In this document: piece after piece, positions 1 to 51,588 of the stretch | Numbering within the stretch: the first letter of the stretch is position 1 | Layout: each line of letters starts with the position of its first letter | From: Hydrotalea sp. | GTDB lineage: Bacteria; Pseudomonadota; Alphaproteobacteria; JASGCL01 | Assembly: GCA_030054115.1 (NCBI GenBank) | Contig: JASGCL010000003.1 | Coordinates: 18,134 to 69,787 of the forward strand | Reading direction: 5' to 3' | DNA: 51,654 bases | Notes under the pieces: model-generated | What the model saw: the letters and a program-made list of their open reading frames with translations, nothing else | Database searches by the model: none | Told to the model about the DNA's origin: nothing | Program-made: the position numbers and the translations under genes

Positions 1-91
1 CAAGTAACGAAGTGATAGGGCAAATAAATTGCCCTCAAGTAACGAAGTGATAGGGCAAATAAATTGCCCTCAAGTAACGAAGTGATAGGGT
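1..91. repeat. Palindromic repeat array A (35-bp period, 3 copies)
   Basis: Three head-to-tail copies of a 35-bp unit; the first is cut by the window edge. Each unit is a 26-bp imperfect palindrome that starts GCCCTCAAG and ends TAGGGC, plus a constant 9-bp AT spacer (AAATAAATT). Copies lie at 1-21, 31-56 and 66-91, and the last ends TAGGGT. The GCCCT/AGGGC ends can pair, with a small inner hairpin around CGAAG. The same element recurs at 3501-3596, 28400-28494 and 51563-51588. It lies downstream of the reverse-strand gene ending at 215. Confidence 0.9.
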
Positions 92-107
92 AAATAAATT
101 GCCCCTC

Positions 108-3500: not shown

Positions 3501-3596
3501 GCCCTCAAGTAGCGAAGCGATAGGGCGAATTTATTGCCCTCAAGCAACGAAGTGGTATGGCAAATTTATTGCCCTCAAGCAACGAAGTGGTAGGGC
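3501..3596. repeat. Palindromic repeat array B (35-bp period, 3 copies)
   Basis: Three copies of the 26-bp palindrome at 3501-3526, 3536-3561 and 3571-3596, exactly 35 bp apart, separated by 9-bp AT spacers (GAATTTATT, AAATTTATT). The first copy is closest to the form AAGTAGCGAAGCGATAGGGC; the next two carry AAGCAACGAAGTGG. The array begins 12 bp after the mttB-like stop and occupies the convergent interval with kup. It may serve as a transcription end or RNA-stabilising structure, but no T-run follows. Confidence 0.9.
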
Positions 3597-15636: not shown

Positions 15637-16929
15637 ATGATAAAAAAAATAGAGAATGACATAATGAATAACACAACAAACAATGCGAAACTTGGCGGGG
15701 GCGCAATGGACACAATAGCGGCCTACGCCAACGACCGGCCGCAACCGCCCATCATGCAGGGCAAGCCAATTCCGCAAGAATGGCGAATCAATTTAAAAAA
15801 TTGGGATATGCCGCCCTATAACCGCTGGTCATTTAATCATTGCAGTGAAATTATTCCCTCGGCGGTAATTGCGCGCGATGAAAAAAATGCTTTATTTTTT
15901 CCGACGGCACCACAAAACCTTGAAGGGTTAACCTTTACCAATAGCCGCGGCGTCAAGACCAGCATGCAGGATTATTTGGAAAAGGGTTTTGTCGATGCCT
16001 TTTTGGTTTATCACAAGGGTAAAATTATTTTTGAAAAATACTTTGCCTTCACCAACCAGCGCAGTTGTCATTTGATGCAATCGATGGGCAAATCGATTGT
16101 CGGCGCGATCGGCCAAAAATTAAAAGACGATAAGATATTGCATGGCGACATGTTGGTGGAAAAGGTTTTGCCCGAGCTTAAAGGAACAGCCTACGGCGGC
16201 GCGACCATCCAGCATCTGATGGACATGAGAAGCGGCATAAGTTTTTCTGAAAATTATGATGAGATGGACGACATCGCAAGCGATTGTTACGCGCTTGATG
16301 CCGCCAATGGGTGGAAGCCAAATGATGGTCGCCACCCCAAGGACAATTATAGCTTGATGCAAACTTATAAAAAGCTAATATCACCCCCCGGGGAACAAGT
16401 AGTCTATCGTTCAACCGATACCGACGTCGCCACCCACTGCTTCGAAAAACTAACCGGCAAAAAAATTGCCGAATTGATTTCCGAATTTTTTTGGCGACCA
16501 ATGGGGGCGGAGGCCGATGCCGCCATCGCCGTTGACCCGATGGGTTATGGCATCGGTTGCGGTGGCATGTCGGCACGGGCGGTTGATATGTTAAAATTTG
16601 GCGTTATGATGACCGAGGATGGGGTTGTCAACGGCAAGCAATTGTTATCGGCGGCGCGGGTTGCCGAATGTTACGACCCGTCACCTTACCCATTTGATAA
16701 AAAAAATGAGGAGATAACCCCGTGCGGTGGTTATAAAAACTTTTTTTGGATAAAGGATGTTGCGCCGCCGGTTATTATGTGTAGCGGCGTGTTTGGCCAA
16801 AATGTCATCATGGATAAAGAAAAGGACATGGTGATAGTGCAATTTGCCACCAGCCCAACCTATTACAATGTCGACGAATGGCACGATGTAATGTTGTTGA
16901 GCGAGGCCATCAGCAAAAACCTTGCTTAG
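15637..16929 (+). CDS. Serine hydrolase, beta-lactamase class C / NylB-like, copy 1
   Basis: PF00144-type serine hydrolase resembling 6-aminohexanoate-dimer hydrolases (EII/NylB). The nucleophile motif SxxK is SMGK (S149-K152), the second-motif tyrosine is Y257 in VVYRSTDTDV, followed by FWRPMGAEADA and a GVFGQ stretch at the position of the KTG motif. There is no signal peptide, so it should be cytoplasmic, unlike AmpC. The true substrate is unknown: amide, ester or peptide. The ATG at 15637 has a strong AGGGAGG (15621-15627); a downstream in-frame ATG would remove only a nonconserved leader. Compared with copies 2 and 3 it has about 25 extra N-terminal residues before the shared QPPIM(x)GKP motif. 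First of three tandem paralogues. Confidence 0.85.
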   Translation: MIKKIENDIMNNTTNNAKLGGGAMDTIAAYANDRPQPPIMQGKPIPQEWRINLKNWDMPPYNRWSFNHCSEIIPSAVIARDEKNALFFPTAPQNLEGLTFTNSRGVKTSMQDYLEKGFVDAFLVYHKGKIIFEKYFAFTNQRSCHLMQSMGKSIVGAIGQKLKDDKILHGDMLVEKVLPELKGTAYGGATIQHLMDMRSGISFSENYDEMDDIASDCYALDAANGWKPNDGRHPKDNYSLMQTYKKLISPPGEQVVYRSTDTDVATHCFEKLTGKKIAELISEFFWRPMGAEADAAIAVDPMGYGIGCGGMSARAVDMLKFGVMMTEDGVVNGKQLLSAARVAECYDPSPYPFDKKNEEITPCGGYKNFFWIKDVAPPVIMCSGVFGQNVIMDKEKDMVIVQFATSPTYYNVDEWHDVMLLSEAISKNLA

Positions 16930-16953
16930 GCGTGTCTATGGTTTTTTTTATAA

Positions 16954-18174
16954 ATGACGATGAAAAAAATTTTTACTAATAACCAACCGCAACCGCCCAT
17001 CATGCGGGGCAAACCCGTCCCGCAGGAATGGCGGGTCAATCTGGAAAATTGGGATTCGCCGCCCTATAACCGCTGGGCATTTAGCCATTGCAACGAAATC
17101 ATGCCGTCGGCGATAATCGCGCGCGATGAAAAAAACGCGTTGTTTTTTCCAAAAAAATTGCAAGATTTATCGACGGTGCCTTTTACCGATAACCAGGGGC
17201 AGGCCATGACCCTGGAGGCTTACCTTAGCAACGGCTTCACCGACGCCTATGTGGTTTATCATAAGGGGGCAATTGTTTTTGAAAAATATTTTGCCTTCAC
17301 CACCGCCACCAGCCGGCATTTGATGCAATCGATGAGCAAATCATTGGTTGGCGCGGTGGCGCAAAAATTAAAGGCCGAAAAAATCTTGCGTGGCGACATG
17401 TTGGTAGAAGACATCTTGCCCGAGATGAAAAAAACCGGCTACGCCGGCGCGACAATGCAACAGGCGATGGATATGCGCACCGGCATCGATTTTAAAGAAA
17501 CCTATTTTGAAAACCCATTGCAGGGCGATTGTTTTGATTTGGACGTCGCCAGCGGTTGGAAACCGAACCCTGGCAATATTGCATCGGATAATTTTTCATT
17601 ACTCCAAACCTACAAAAAACAAATCTTCGCCCATGGCCACGACATGATTTATCGTTGCGTTGAAACCGACGTGGTGACCCATTGCATCGAAAAACTAACC
17701 GGTAAAAAAATTGCCGAATTGGTTTCTGAATTTTTCTGGCGACCGATGGGGGCGGAGGGTGACGCCTTCTTCACCGTCGATTCCCACGGCTATGGCATCG
17801 GGTCGGGTGGGGCCTGCGCCCGCGCGGTTGATATGTTAAAATTCGGCGTTATGATGGCGGAGGGCGGGGTTATCAACGGCAAACAACTACTGCCCGAATC
17901 ATTGGTCGCCGAATGTTACAACCCGGCGCCTTACCAATTTGATAAAAAACACCCGGAGTTAACCCCCTGCGGCGGTTACAAGAATTTTTTCTGGATTAAT
18001 GACCAATCGCCGCAGGTGATTTTATGCTCGGGCGTGTTTGGCCAATTGGTTTACATCGACAAAACCAACGACGTAGTGATTACCGCCTTTAGCAGTTGGC
18101 CGACCCACGGCACCGATAATGGCTGGGTCGATTCGCTTCTGGCAAGCGAAGCCATCGTTAATGCGCTATCCTAA
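16954..18174 (+). CDS. Serine hydrolase, beta-lactamase class C / NylB-like, copy 2
   Basis: Paralogue of the preceding gene, 24 bp downstream. It shares the N-terminal QPPIMRGKPVPQEWRVNLEN block, the nucleophile motif SMSK (S126-K129), Y233 in MIYRCVETDV, the FFWRPMGAEGDAF block and the GYGIGSGGACARAVDMLKFG segment, plus SGVFGQLVYIDK near the end. 406 residues, no signal peptide. The conserved catalytic residues suggest an active enzyme. No clear Shine-Dalgarno is seen; two nearby ATGs (16954, 16960) compete. By eye, well over half of aligned residues match the other two copies, with the variable part in the central segment around residues 180-210, which could tune the substrate. Confidence 0.85.
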   Translation: MTMKKIFTNNQPQPPIMRGKPVPQEWRVNLENWDSPPYNRWAFSHCNEIMPSAIIARDEKNALFFPKKLQDLSTVPFTDNQGQAMTLEAYLSNGFTDAYVVYHKGAIVFEKYFAFTTATSRHLMQSMSKSLVGAVAQKLKAEKILRGDMLVEDILPEMKKTGYAGATMQQAMDMRTGIDFKETYFENPLQGDCFDLDVASGWKPNPGNIASDNFSLLQTYKKQIFAHGHDMIYRCVETDVVTHCIEKLTGKKIAELVSEFFWRPMGAEGDAFFTVDSHGYGIGSGGACARAVDMLKFGVMMAEGGVINGKQLLPESLVAECYNPAPYQFDKKHPELTPCGGYKNFFWINDQSPQVILCSGVFGQLVYIDKTNDVVITAFSSWPTHGTDNGWVDSLLASEAIVNALS

Positions 18175-18209
18175 ATTACTTGTCCTAAATTATTTGTCAT
18201 CAATAAAGA

Positions 18210-19445
18210 TTGCCAACCTCATTGCCCAATATTTTTCCTAATAATCTAGCGCAACCACCCATCATGGCGGGTAAACCGGTGACAAATGAGTTGCAGGTCA
18301 ATTTGGAAAATTGGGATAGCCCGCCGCAAATGCGCTGGGCATTTAATCATTGCAATCAATTCATGCCAACCGCGACCATCGCCCGCGATGAAAAAAACAT
18401 GTTGCATTTTGCCGAACAGAAGCAGGATATAGAGGCGATAAATTTTACCGATAGTAAGGGCAGGGCGACCAGCGTGAAGCAATACCTCGACCATGGGTTT
18501 GTTGATGGTTTTTTGGTTTATCATCGCGGCAAAATAATTTTTGAAAAATACCATAGCTTCACCAACGCCGCCAGTTGTCATTTATTGCAATCTGTCACCA
18601 AATCAGTTATCGGCGCGGTCGGCCAGAAATTGAAGGCCGAAAAAATCCTGCGTGGTGATATGTTGATAGAATCCATTTTGCCCGAGATGAACAACACCGG
18701 CTATGCCGGTGCCACCGTGCAACAGGCGATGGACATGCGCAGTGGCATCGAGTTTAAGCAAGATTATTATGAATTTCCCATCGACGATACCAGCGGCGAT
18801 AGCTACGCGCTTGATATCGCCAATGGATGGAAGGGGAACGACGGCTCCTACCCCCGCGACAATTTTGCGCTGTTGCAAACATTAAAAAAAATAAGCTTTC
18901 CCCATGGCGAGCAAATGGTTTATCGCTGTGTTGAGGCCGATGTTGTTACCCATTGTTTTGAAAAACTAACCGGTAAAAAAATTGCTGACCTGATTTCTGA
19001 ATTTTTATGGCGGCCGATGGGCGCCGGTGCCAATGGCTACATCACACTTGACCCCAGCGGCTTTGGCATCGGTTCTGGCGGTTTGTGCGCGCGGGCGCGC
19101 GATATATTGGCATTTGGTGTTATGATGGCGGAGGACGGCTTCATCAACGACAAGCAGGTATTGACGGAATCGTTGGTCGCTGAATGTTATAACCCCGCGC
19201 CATACAAGTTTGACAAAACCAACCCCGCCCTGGCGCCGGGCGGCGGTTATAAAAATTTCTTCTGGATAAATGATGTAACGCCGCCGCATATCAGCTGCTT
19301 CGGCGTTTATGGCCAAATGGTGTCGATAGATAAAAAAAACAATTTGGTGATGGTCATGGTTTCGACCTGGCCCACGCCGGAGCATGACGATGGTTGGAAA
19401 AACCCATTGCTAATGACCGCCGCCATTACCCGCGACATTGCTTAA
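18210..19445 (+). CDS. Serine hydrolase, beta-lactamase class C / NylB-like, copy 3
   Basis: Third tandem paralogue. QPPIMAGKPVTNELQVNLEN opens the shared region, the SxxK is SVTK (S128-K131), the tyrosine Y238 in MVYRCVEADV, then FLWRPMGAGANGY and FGVYGQMVSIDK. It is the most divergent copy: the PxQEW block is changed to TNELQ and the SMxK motif to SVTK, yet the catalytic Ser, Lys and Tyr are kept. The apparent start is TTG at 18210; no ATG lies in frame upstream of the conserved block, and a weak AATAAAGA precedes it. A second TTG (18222) is possible. 411 residues, no signal peptide. Confidence 0.83.
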   Translation: MPTSLPNIFPNNLAQPPIMAGKPVTNELQVNLENWDSPPQMRWAFNHCNQFMPTATIARDEKNMLHFAEQKQDIEAINFTDSKGRATSVKQYLDHGFVDGFLVYHRGKIIFEKYHSFTNAASCHLLQSVTKSVIGAVGQKLKAEKILRGDMLIESILPEMNNTGYAGATVQQAMDMRSGIEFKQDYYEFPIDDTSGDSYALDIANGWKGNDGSYPRDNFALLQTLKKISFPHGEQMVYRCVEADVVTHCFEKLTGKKIADLISEFLWRPMGAGANGYITLDPSGFGIGSGGLCARARDILAFGVMMAEDGFINDKQVLTESLVAECYNPAPYKFDKTNPALAPGGGYKNFFWINDVTPPHISCFGVYGQMVSIDKKNNLVMVMVSTWPTPEHDDGWKNPLLMTAAITRDIA

Positions 19446-27710: not shown

Positions 27711-27732
27711 GTTTTATTTGCAACGAAAATAG

Positions 27733-27799
27733 TCGCACTATAATTTGTGGGTGCGATAAAAATCGCACTATTATTTATTGGTGCGATAAAATTCGCACC
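27733..27799. repeat. Alternating GTGCGA/TCGCAC hairpin repeats at the plsC/nth convergence
   Basis: TCGCAC (27733-27738), GTGCGAT (27751-27757), ATCGCAC (27762-27768) and GGTGCGA (27780-27786)/TCGCACC (27793-27799) create several mutually exclusive stems, the cleanest being GTGCGATAAAAATCGCAC. The 7-bp stem at 27751-27768 is followed on the + strand by TATTATTTATT and could end plsC transcription. The last stem overlaps the final codons and stop of nth on the other strand, so it may end nth as well. Confidence 0.6.
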
Positions 27800-28511
27800 A
27801 GTTGGTCAAAAAACAATTAGTGCATTGTGGATTTTGGCTTTTGCAAATATAGCGGCCATGCAAAATAAGCCAGTGGTGCGCGTGCGATAAAAATTCTGTT
27901 GGAATGATTTTTAATAATGCTTCCTCGGTTTTTTCAGGGTTGGTGGTGCGGCATAGGCCCAATCGGTTGCTGACGCGAAACACATGGGTGTCAACCGCGA
28001 TGGTCGGCTGACCAAAGGCAATATTCAATACGACATTGGCGGTTTTGCGGCCGACGCCCGGCAATTGCCGCAACTCATCCATCGTTTGCGGCACCACGCC
28101 ATTATGTTTTTCAACCAAGATGTGGCAGGTTTTCATGATATTGCTGGCCTTGGTTTTATAAAGCCCGATGCTCCGCACCGCGTCGGTAAATTTTTCCAAA
28201 CCCATATCAATCACATCTTGCGGTGTGGCAATTTTGTCGAACAACGGCCTGGTGGCTTTATTCACGCCGGCATCGGTCGCCTGGGCCGACAATATTACCG
28301 CCAGCAACAGGGTAAAATTGTTGGTGTGGTATAGTTCGCCCTTGGGCTCGGGGTTATGTTGGCGAAAGGCCGCAAAAATTTTTTTTACCAATTTGGTTTG
28401 CCCTACCGCTCCGCTACTTGAGGGCAGGTTGGTTTGCCCAAAATTTTGTCCTACCGCTGACGCTACTTGAGGACGCGCTTCGCTACTTGAGGGCGATTTC
28501 GGACGCGTCAT
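27771..28511 (-). CDS. nth: Endonuclease III with a repeat-derived N-terminal extension
   Basis: DNA glycosylase/AP lyase excising oxidised pyrimidines. The helix-hairpin-helix LPGVGRKTAN (150-159) holds catalytic Lys156, Asp174 lies in AVDTHVFRV, and the [4Fe-4S] cysteines are C223, C230, C233 and C239 (C-x6-C-x2-C-x5-C), so the enzyme should be active. Against E. coli Nth (211 residues) the 246-residue frame has about 36 extra N-terminal residues rich in Ser, Pro, Gln and Gly, encoded by three copies of the palindromic repeat at 28400-28494. A TTG at 28391, preceded by GGTAGGG, would remove the extension. The ATG at 28511 lies only 8 bp after the folD stop, so a repeat insertion downstream of the original start is likely. 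Confidence 0.93.
   Translation of the reverse strand: MTRPKSPSSSEARPQVASAVGQNFGQTNLPSSSGAVGQTKLVKKIFAAFRQHNPEPKGELYHTNNFTLLLAVILSAQATDAGVNKATRPLFDKIATPQDVIDMGLEKFTDAVRSIGLYKTKASNIMKTCHILVEKHNGVVPQTMDELRQLPGVGRKTANVVLNIAFGQPTIAVDTHVFRVSNRLGLCRTTNPEKTEEALLKIIPTEFLSHAHHWLILHGRYICKSQNPQCTNCFLTNWCEFYRTNK
28400..28494 (-). repeat. Palindromic repeat element inside the nth 5' coding region
   Basis: On the minus strand, two complete copies of the GCCCTCAAG...TAGGGC family (28400-28425, 28448-28474) and one truncated copy (28475-28494) sit in frame with nth. The middle copy reads GTCCT...AGGAC in place of GCCCT...AGGGC, a paired change that preserves base-pairing. The encoded residues recur as SPSSSEARPQ, VASAVGQ and LPSSSGAVGQ. 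The copies lie 48 bp and less apart, unlike the strict 35-bp arrays elsewhere. Confidence 0.85.
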
Positions 28512-28519
28512 TTTATGGG

Positions 28520-29404
28520 CTAAAGTTGTGGCTCGGGCAATCCATGTTGCCGCGCGGTCGCGACGAGCGTGTTGCGCAGGAGGCAGGCGATGGTCATTGG
28601 CCCGACGCCACCCGGCACCGGTGTAATGGCGGCGGCAATCCCCATGGCTGATGCCGTGTCAACATCGCCGACGATAATTTTTTTGCCGTTACGTTCGATG
28701 CGGTTGATGCCGACGTCGATAACCACCGCGTCTTTTTTCAACCACGCGCCCTTGACCATTTCGGGCACGCCGACCGCCGCGACCACGATATCATATTGCG
28801 CCAATTCCTTTTCCATGTTTTTTGTTTTGCTGTGCAAAATCGTCGGCGTCGCGTTGGCCGACAATAATAATTGAAACATCGGTTTGCCGACAATGTTCGA
28901 ACGGCCGATAACCGCGGCCTTGCGCCCAGCCAAATCTTTGTTTTTAAAATAATCTTGCAACAACAATAAACAGCCATAGGGGGTGCAGGGCACCAGCGCG
29001 TTTTTGCCGCCGGTCGACAGCAACCCAACATTGGTCAGGTGGAAACCATCGACATCTTTTTCGGCCGAGATGGTTTGGATAACCTTATGCTCGTCCAACC
29101 CTTTTGGTAATGGCAATTGCACCAAAATACCATTGACCGATGGGTCGCGGTTTAATTTGTCAATCAGGTCAAGCAAATCTTTTTCCGATGTCGCGGCGGG
29201 CAGGCGATGTTCGCGACTTTCCATGCCGGCGGCAATGGTGGTTTTGATTTTGTTTTTGACATAAACTTCCGACGCCGGGTTGTCGCCGACCAACACCACC
29301 ACCAGGCATGGCTTCACGCCCTTGGCGATAATTTTTTTTGCCTCGCGCGCGATGTCGTTTACGAGGTTTTCAGCAAATACTTTGCCGTCGATAATTGTTG
29401 TCAT
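28520..29404 (-). CDS. folD: Bifunctional methylenetetrahydrofolate dehydrogenase/cyclohydrolase
   Basis: NADP-dependent one-carbon enzyme interconverting 5,10-methylene-, methenyl- and 10-formyl-tetrahydrofolate in the cytosol. YVKNKIKT holds the catalytic Tyr/Lys, NGILVQLPLPKGLDE the folate-binding loop, GRSNIVGKPM the nucleotide-binding site and PVPGGVGPMT the C-terminal family signature. 294 residues, normal. It lies between yggT (14 bp upstream) and nth (8 bp downstream). Confidence 0.98.
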   Translation of the reverse strand: MTTIIDGKVFAENLVNDIAREAKKIIAKGVKPCLVVVLVGDNPASEVYVKNKIKTTIAAGMESREHRLPAATSEKDLLDLIDKLNRDPSVNGILVQLPLPKGLDEHKVIQTISAEKDVDGFHLTNVGLLSTGGKNALVPCTPYGCLLLLQDYFKNKDLAGRKAAVIGRSNIVGKPMFQLLLSANATPTILHSKTKNMEKELAQYDIVVAAVGVPEMVKGAWLKKDAVVIDVGINRIERNGKKIIVGDVDTASAMGIAAAITPVPGGVGPMTIACLLRNTLVATARQHGLPEPQL

Positions 29405-49804: not shown

Positions 49805-49893
49805 TAGCTATAATGTGTTAAGTATTTGAAAGGTGACTTGCATATTATAGTTACCGACGATTTGTATACGAGACAATTATAAGAAAAGCAACC

Positions 49894-49986
49894 AAAAAAA
49901 GGACGAAATTTTTATAAAAAAAGGACAAAATTTTTATAAAAAAAGGACAAAATTTTACAAAAAAAGGACAAAATTTTACAAAAAAA
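49894..49986. repeat. 22-bp AT-rich tandem repeat, four copies
   Basis: Four copies of a unit AAAAAAAGGACAAAATTTTT, with GGAC at 49901, 49923, 49945 and 49966 (periods 22, 22, 21). The first copy has GGACG; the third and fourth end TTTTAC rather than TTTTTAT. Slippage is a likely origin; a protein or RNA binding array is possible. Confidence 0.9.
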
Positions 49987-51562: not shown

Positions 51563-51588
51563 GCCCTCAAGTAGCGGAGCGGTAGGGC
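51563..51588. repeat. Solitary copy of the GCCCTCAAG palindrome
   Basis: GCCCTCAAG, then TAGCGGAGCGG and TAGGGC: one copy of the family seen at 1-91, 3501-3596 and 28400-28494. This one has the GGAGCGG variant found in the first nth copy. No 35-bp array is visible before the window ends. Confidence 0.85.

Follow-up and report, generated by a model that had tools for sequence, protein, structure and literature searches.

A short hairpin repeat, apparently of an undescribed family, probably inserted in frame in an alphaproteobacterial endonuclease III gene

The palindromic elements of Rickettsia and Wolbachia (RPE and WPE) lie between genes and also in frame inside conserved genes, where the frame is kept and the sites are exposed (PMC3767692, PMC10969869). 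REPs are hairpins of 20 to 40 bp present in high copy number; most are intergenic, with some in open reading frames and many in DNA repair genes, and the 2013 catalogue of these repeats notes that N-terminal copies in other bacteria may often be untranslated (PMC3733652). Small repeats, MITEs among them, can add peptide to host proteins (PMC10969869), and the palindromic amphipathic repeat is reported as another such element (PMC2996958). MITEs are 70 to 300 bp long (PMC3733652). In the sources cited here, in-frame palindromic elements are chiefly those of Rickettsia and Wolbachia, with scattered REP cases elsewhere. The family described below is compact, is read mainly in one frame, and comes from a different alphaproteobacterial order. 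The case at hand concerns nth, which lies in a window of 51,654 nucleotides (the whole stretch of DNA that was analyzed). We consider it likely that a composite of one half copy, one 27-nt copy and one 26-nt copy of a hairpin was inserted after codon 5 of this gene and that the product is translated from ATG 28511; its glycosylase domain is intact.

The nth locus and its start codon

The features of the locus, given in window coordinates, are as follows.

27771 to 28511, minus strand: nth, endonuclease III, 246 aa from ATG 28511 (NCBIfam TIGR01083 at 272.9 bits; Pfam HhH-GPD)
27774 to 28388, minus strand: conserved glycosylase core, from V42 (profile match, alignments)
28520 to 29404, minus strand: folD, upstream neighbor of nth (NCBIfam PRK14188, above cut-off), whose stop codon lies 8 nt upstream of the nth ATG
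28497 to 28511, minus strand: probable original first five nth codons, ATG ACG CGT CCG AAA (MTRPK), at offset -4 after excision
28389 to 28496, minus strand: in-frame insert, 108 nt or 36 codons, SPSSSEARPQVASAVGQNFGQTNLPSSSGAVGQTKL, residues 6 to 41 of predicted Nth, its left edge uncertain by 1 to 3 nt
28475 to 28494, minus strand: 20-nt half copy that lacks the 3' stem arm of the hairpin
28448 to 28474, minus strand: 27-nt copy, GTCCTCAAGTAGCGTCAGCGGTAGGAC, with a GNNA (GTCA) loop and a GTCCT/AGGAC outer stem; an identical 27-mer lies in rsmG
28400 to 28425, minus strand: 26-nt copy, GCCCTCAAGTAGCGGAGCGGTAGGGC, with a GNA (GGA) loop and a GCCCT/AGGGC outer stem
28389 to 28399, minus strand: element tail, AAACCAAATTG, which contains TTG 28391 to 28389; similar tails follow most copies

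The sequence-only reading had described the N-terminal codons of nth as two and a half copies of a palindrome, placed the ATG 8 bp after folD, and considered the glycosylase core intact, and we found the same. The insert at 28389 to 28496 consists of a half copy and two whole copies, the latter separated by a 22-nt spacer, followed by a tail, and the reading frame from 28511 to 27771 begins 8 nt past the folD stop. The TIGR01083 match starts at residue 42 and scores well above the cut-off of 211.7 bits. In the core, inspection of the sequence and alignments identified the catalytic motifs LPGVGRKTANVVLN and VDTHVFR and the four Fe-S cysteines, so that the profile, the HhH-GPD domain, the motifs and the cysteines that mark the endonuclease III family are all present in Nth. 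These intact features, the unbroken reading frame, and an identity to relatives of up to 59% over ~200 residues (a contig scan of genomes gave two MAG loci, with Nth at 58 to 59% identity) argue against the idea that nth is decaying, with the repeat as part of that decay and neither start codon of any consequence. The small genome (1.68 Mb) and the presence of repeats in several repair genes fit such a decay, but the other genes that carry the element are intact as well, and we regard it as exceedingly improbable.

When 28389 to 28496 is excised from nth, the result is MTRPKVKKIFAAFRQHNPEP and the protein begins MTRPKVKKIF, with its start at offset -4. We compared this with 59 homologous loci from the same class, a few of them duplicates: 45 have their nearest start codon at -4 and another 4 have it at -5. 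The uncertain left edge of the insert would move the nth start to -5 at most, and the empty site is reconstructed from distant homologs of at most 59% identity. Since the start offset after excision equals that of 45 of the 59 loci, ATG 28511 is probably the ancestral start, with the element having entered after codon 5. The proposal that the element was absorbed into a working protein, much as RPEs are, gains support from this restoration of a family-typical N-terminus in the alignment with distant homologs.

The alternative is that the old N-terminus was displaced and translation now begins at TTG 28391 in the element tail, in which case the repeats would be 5' untranslated sequence and their open frame a matter of luck. 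The TTG is preceded by a Shine-Dalgarno-like AGGG supplied by the element tail, with a predicted duplex of -6.2 kcal/mol, while ATG 28511 has none; the product (MVKKIFAAFR...) would retain the whole profile match; and N-terminal REPs elsewhere are often untranslated (PMC3733652). However, starts in the window, picked by a crude procedure, show no preference for such a motif over random positions (median of -1.7 versus -2.1 kcal/mol), and window genes mostly start with ATG. The TTG product would also miss four residues that most homologs have before that point. Of the three phases in each direction, one forward and one reverse phase of the insert are free of stops, and the phase in which it sits is the open forward one. 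If translation began at the TTG, which we judge unlikely, it would be a coincidence that a stop-free, in-frame insert directly follows an ATG that keeps the ancestral distance. Translation from ATG 28511 is predicted to yield the peptide SPSSSEARPQVASAVGQNFGQTNLPSSSGAVGQTK, and the repeat is probably translated in the cell as a harmless Ser-rich peptide. An AlphaFold model of Nth, built on 3 sequences, has a mean pLDDT of 58.9, with residues 1 to 39 mostly below 40; the low confidence of this segment is consistent with disorder.

The loop of the 27-nt copy in nth is one base longer (GTCA), which shifts the frame, so this copy is read differently, as PQVASAVGQ. The paired change in its outer stem (GTCCT/AGGAC) had been taken as a sign that structure is selected. 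The change is real, but the 27-mer is identical to one in rsmG (C2:18965), so that the pair was probably inherited with the copy, and it does not stand as proof of selection within nth.

The hairpin family in the genome

Using a covariance model built from 24 copies of the element, we searched the 1.68-Mb genome (91 contigs, 95.5% complete) and obtained 121 matches at an E value of at most 1, of which 117, in 65 clusters, were analyzed. The element has the form NNNNT-CAAG(T/C)A-(G/A)C-GNA-G(C/T)-G(A/G)T-ANNNN, in a unit of 26 to 27 nt followed by a tail of ~9 to 11 nt. All five outer stem pairs are present in 104 of the 117 copies, as GCCCT/AGGGC, GCGCT/AGCGC, GCACT/AGTGC, GTCCT/AGGAC or CCCCT/AGGGG, while the inner stem is mainly GC/GC or AC/GT and also AT/AT or GT/AC. 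In the 24-sequence alignment both stems covary (0.406 versus 0.128 when shuffled, with 97.6% of cells paired), and the covariation disappears when the alignment is slid. Nearly all 26-nt copies have a GNA loop, and each of the 15 copies of 27 nt has a GNNA loop; these fit d(cGNAg) and d(cGNNAg), which are known as unusually stable DNA hairpin loops. No Rfam family fits the element.

In the window there are 8 matches to an 18-nt consensus, with 0.07 expected from shuffled sequence. The palindrome had been said to lie between genes elsewhere; the other copies in the window are at three places without a coding frame.

1 to 94, plus strand: three more copies spaced 35 nt, the first cut by the window edge; no open coding frame
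3501 to 3596, plus strand: three more copies, again at a spacing of 35 nt, in an array that no coding frame crosses
51563 to 51588, plus strand: single copy, not flanked on both sides by a coding frame

We also observed that many contigs end at or near arrays of the element (C6, C23, C30, C31, C34, C35, C41, C43, C58, C59, C61 and C72) and that scaffold gaps of 100 N lie within arrays. Because contig ends and gaps coincide with arrays, some of these are probably incompletely assembled and the true copy number is probably higher.

The window holds other repeats. A different inverted repeat, GTGCGA...TCGCAC, lies at 27720 to 27800, at and past the convergent ends of a plsC-like gene and nth. At 15718 to 19351 there are three tandem units of ~1.25 kb that are 69 to 75% identical and probably paralogous genes, and at 49873 to 49980 there is a short tandem array of a 21- to 22-nt unit, AAAAAAAGGACAAAATTTTTAT.

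In-frame copies in other genes and the wider distribution

A genome-wide search for the element inside other reading frames found it in the genes for Mfd, MutY, ArgC, RsmG, an FlbD-like regulator and a HemH-like protein. In the first five of these it is flanked by conserved protein on both sides. Mfd carries four copies, with 62 residues between two aligned parts compared to 18 in Escherichia coli; MutY has at least seven, in a stretch that spans a scaffold gap, and the sequence downstream is MutY-like and contains the Fe-S cysteines; ArgC has three, with the conserved NLGKGASGAALQNV end downstream; RsmG/GidB has four; and the FlbD-like sigma-54 regulator has two, between its N-terminal part and the AAA+ domain. 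In the HemH-like protein (C6) the element lies near the N-terminus, and in a family of secreted or outer-membrane-like paralogs it is either close to the N-terminus or within the signal-peptide region. One scanned member of the latter family has no match in Pfam or NCBIfam. At six of the paralog loci (L178, L170, L172, L179, L181 and L162) the element follows the signal peptide, and two paralogs (C69 and C46) have an extra SRSNSEAIAQ copy inside the n-region of the signal peptide. Three of the hosts are DNA-repair proteins: MutY (L153, C18:7645-7969), Mfd (L157, C23:17227-17360) and Nth in the window.

In coding hosts the element reads PSSS(E/G/N)A(I/V)GQ or a near variant, and the remaining two forward frames contain TAG in most copies. 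Copies are spaced 36 nt in coding arrays (48 in nth) and mostly 35 nt elsewhere. Spacings are divisible by three in 17 of 18 cases in coding arrays versus 4 of 19 elsewhere, a comparison that is partly circular since the arrays were sorted by open frame. The sole exception among the coding spacings is one of 35 nt in rsmG, where the extra loop base of the 27-nt copy restores the frame. The proposed absorption in frame is in line with these spacings and with the same element and frame inside the five other conserved genes. These five, identified by homology, are a firmer argument for translation than the spacing statistic. The element sits in mid-protein in Mfd, MutY, ArgC, RsmG and the FlbD-like regulator, so a downstream start cannot account for it there, and the fact that its frame is certainly coding in these five genes also argues against a TTG start in nth.

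Another possibility is that the element has been adopted for use, with the tail or the mRNA or DNA hairpins regulating the repair genes for Nth, MutY and Mfd. That three coding hosts are repair proteins, that REPs in repair genes have been reported before (PMC3733652), and that the stems covary would all agree with this. However, the other hosts are unrelated (ArgC, RsmG, the FlbD-like and HemH-like proteins, and secreted proteins), copy number differs between hosts, and the nth segment folds only modestly better than shuffled sequences in thermodynamic predictions. We therefore think such adoption very unlikely, and favor insertion in frame into nth with continued translation from the ATG.

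We infer how this insertion may have come about, be translated from the ATG and be tolerated, as follows. The element would be a small hairpin repeat, probably non-autonomous and mobile or selfish, that spreads through the action of some enzyme or through replication slippage and expands in tandem. In nth it would have entered in its single stop-free forward phase and with a length divisible by three, so that translation would still begin at the original ATG 28511 and Nth would carry, ahead of its first helix, 36 additional residues that are rich in Ser, Pro, Gly, Ala and Gln and probably disordered. Such insertions may be tolerated when they enter in the phase whose product is a short peptide, hydrophilic and flexible, and when the site is exposed, as are the N-terminus, an interdomain linker or a loop, while those that break the frame would be removed by selection.

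Beyond this genome, we applied the covariance model to 384 others of the class, and 19 of them contain the element at an E value of at most 1e-5. An exact 13-mer showed no enrichment in 57 relatives from the class; restriction of the element to this genome was considered and rejected on the strength of the 19 covariance-model genomes. There are 11 plasmid records with the element, all from Rhodobacterales genera, and in Phaeobacter it occupies the ~34 nt that separate two phage tail genes. No phage record matched in a short-query BLAST, although IMG/VR contains 107 stretches with an exact 22-nt core versus none with a reversed control pattern. Most IMG/VR copies are outside clear coding frames. 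The PSSS frame is found in a viral P2-type terminase, a ParB-like protein, a phage lysozyme and a GP46 protein, and in the terminase and the ParB-like protein PSSSEAVGQ is inserted within the Pfam domain match. The terminase, ParB-like and lysozyme loci are at L227:9820-11901, L296:10743-12875 and L271:2-643, and the lysozyme has a four-unit in-frame array on its C-terminal side. In a crude codon-position test, forward and reverse coding frames at viral loci are about equal (6 to 7), so we claim the single-frame rule for this genome only. Several viral frames look spurious, such as an Arg-rich frame in L278.

A broader, tentative idea is that an undescribed hairpin element is common to alphaproteobacteria and their phages and that phages may be what spreads it. 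The one forward frame that is usually free of stops would yield a benign, linker-like PSSSEAVGQ, so that it could spread in coding as well as intergenic DNA and could repeatedly have entered DNA-repair and phage packaging genes, and its conserved C-GNA-G or C-GNNA-G loop, which matches motifs known for exceptionally stable mini-hairpins of single-stranded DNA, would point to movement through single-stranded DNA.

Comparison with known elements

The element is found inside enzymes with assayable function, and this genome shares the family with Rhodobacterales plasmids and phage contigs. With assayable hosts, one dominant frame and such sharing, it becomes directly testable how selfish DNA gives rise to parts of proteins. 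The family is also a warning for gene annotation, as a start codon placed downstream of such repeats by trimming may be incorrect. In the literature searched, nothing relevant turned up for the core sequence or the peptide of the element.

Like REPs, the element is a short hairpin repeat with tens to hundreds of copies, mostly extragenic. Unlike REPs, the listed copies have no constant GTAG or CGTC tag flanking the stem, and the inner GTAG varies (CAAGCAG, CAAGTAA). REPs mobilized by RAYT differ further, since no Y1/RAYT transposase (PF01797) was found in this genome (95.5% complete assembly) in a search that gave matches in control genomes. Compared to MITEs the element is far shorter, with no terminal inverted repeats or target duplications recognized. 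As in RPE and WPE, it is palindromic, repeated throughout the genome, and found in frame within conserved protein genes. However, RPEs are 100 to 150 bp long and, in the sources cited here, limited to Rickettsia and Wolbachia, while this hairpin has 26 to 27 nt and a loop of the form C-GNA-G or C-GNNA-G, its tandem arrays have a period of 35 or 36, and Rhodobacterales plasmids and phage contigs contain it too. The element is apparently not a Rickettsia element; it resembles RPEs in behavior and differs from them in length, structure and host range, and the hairpin family is apparently a different, new and undescribed one.
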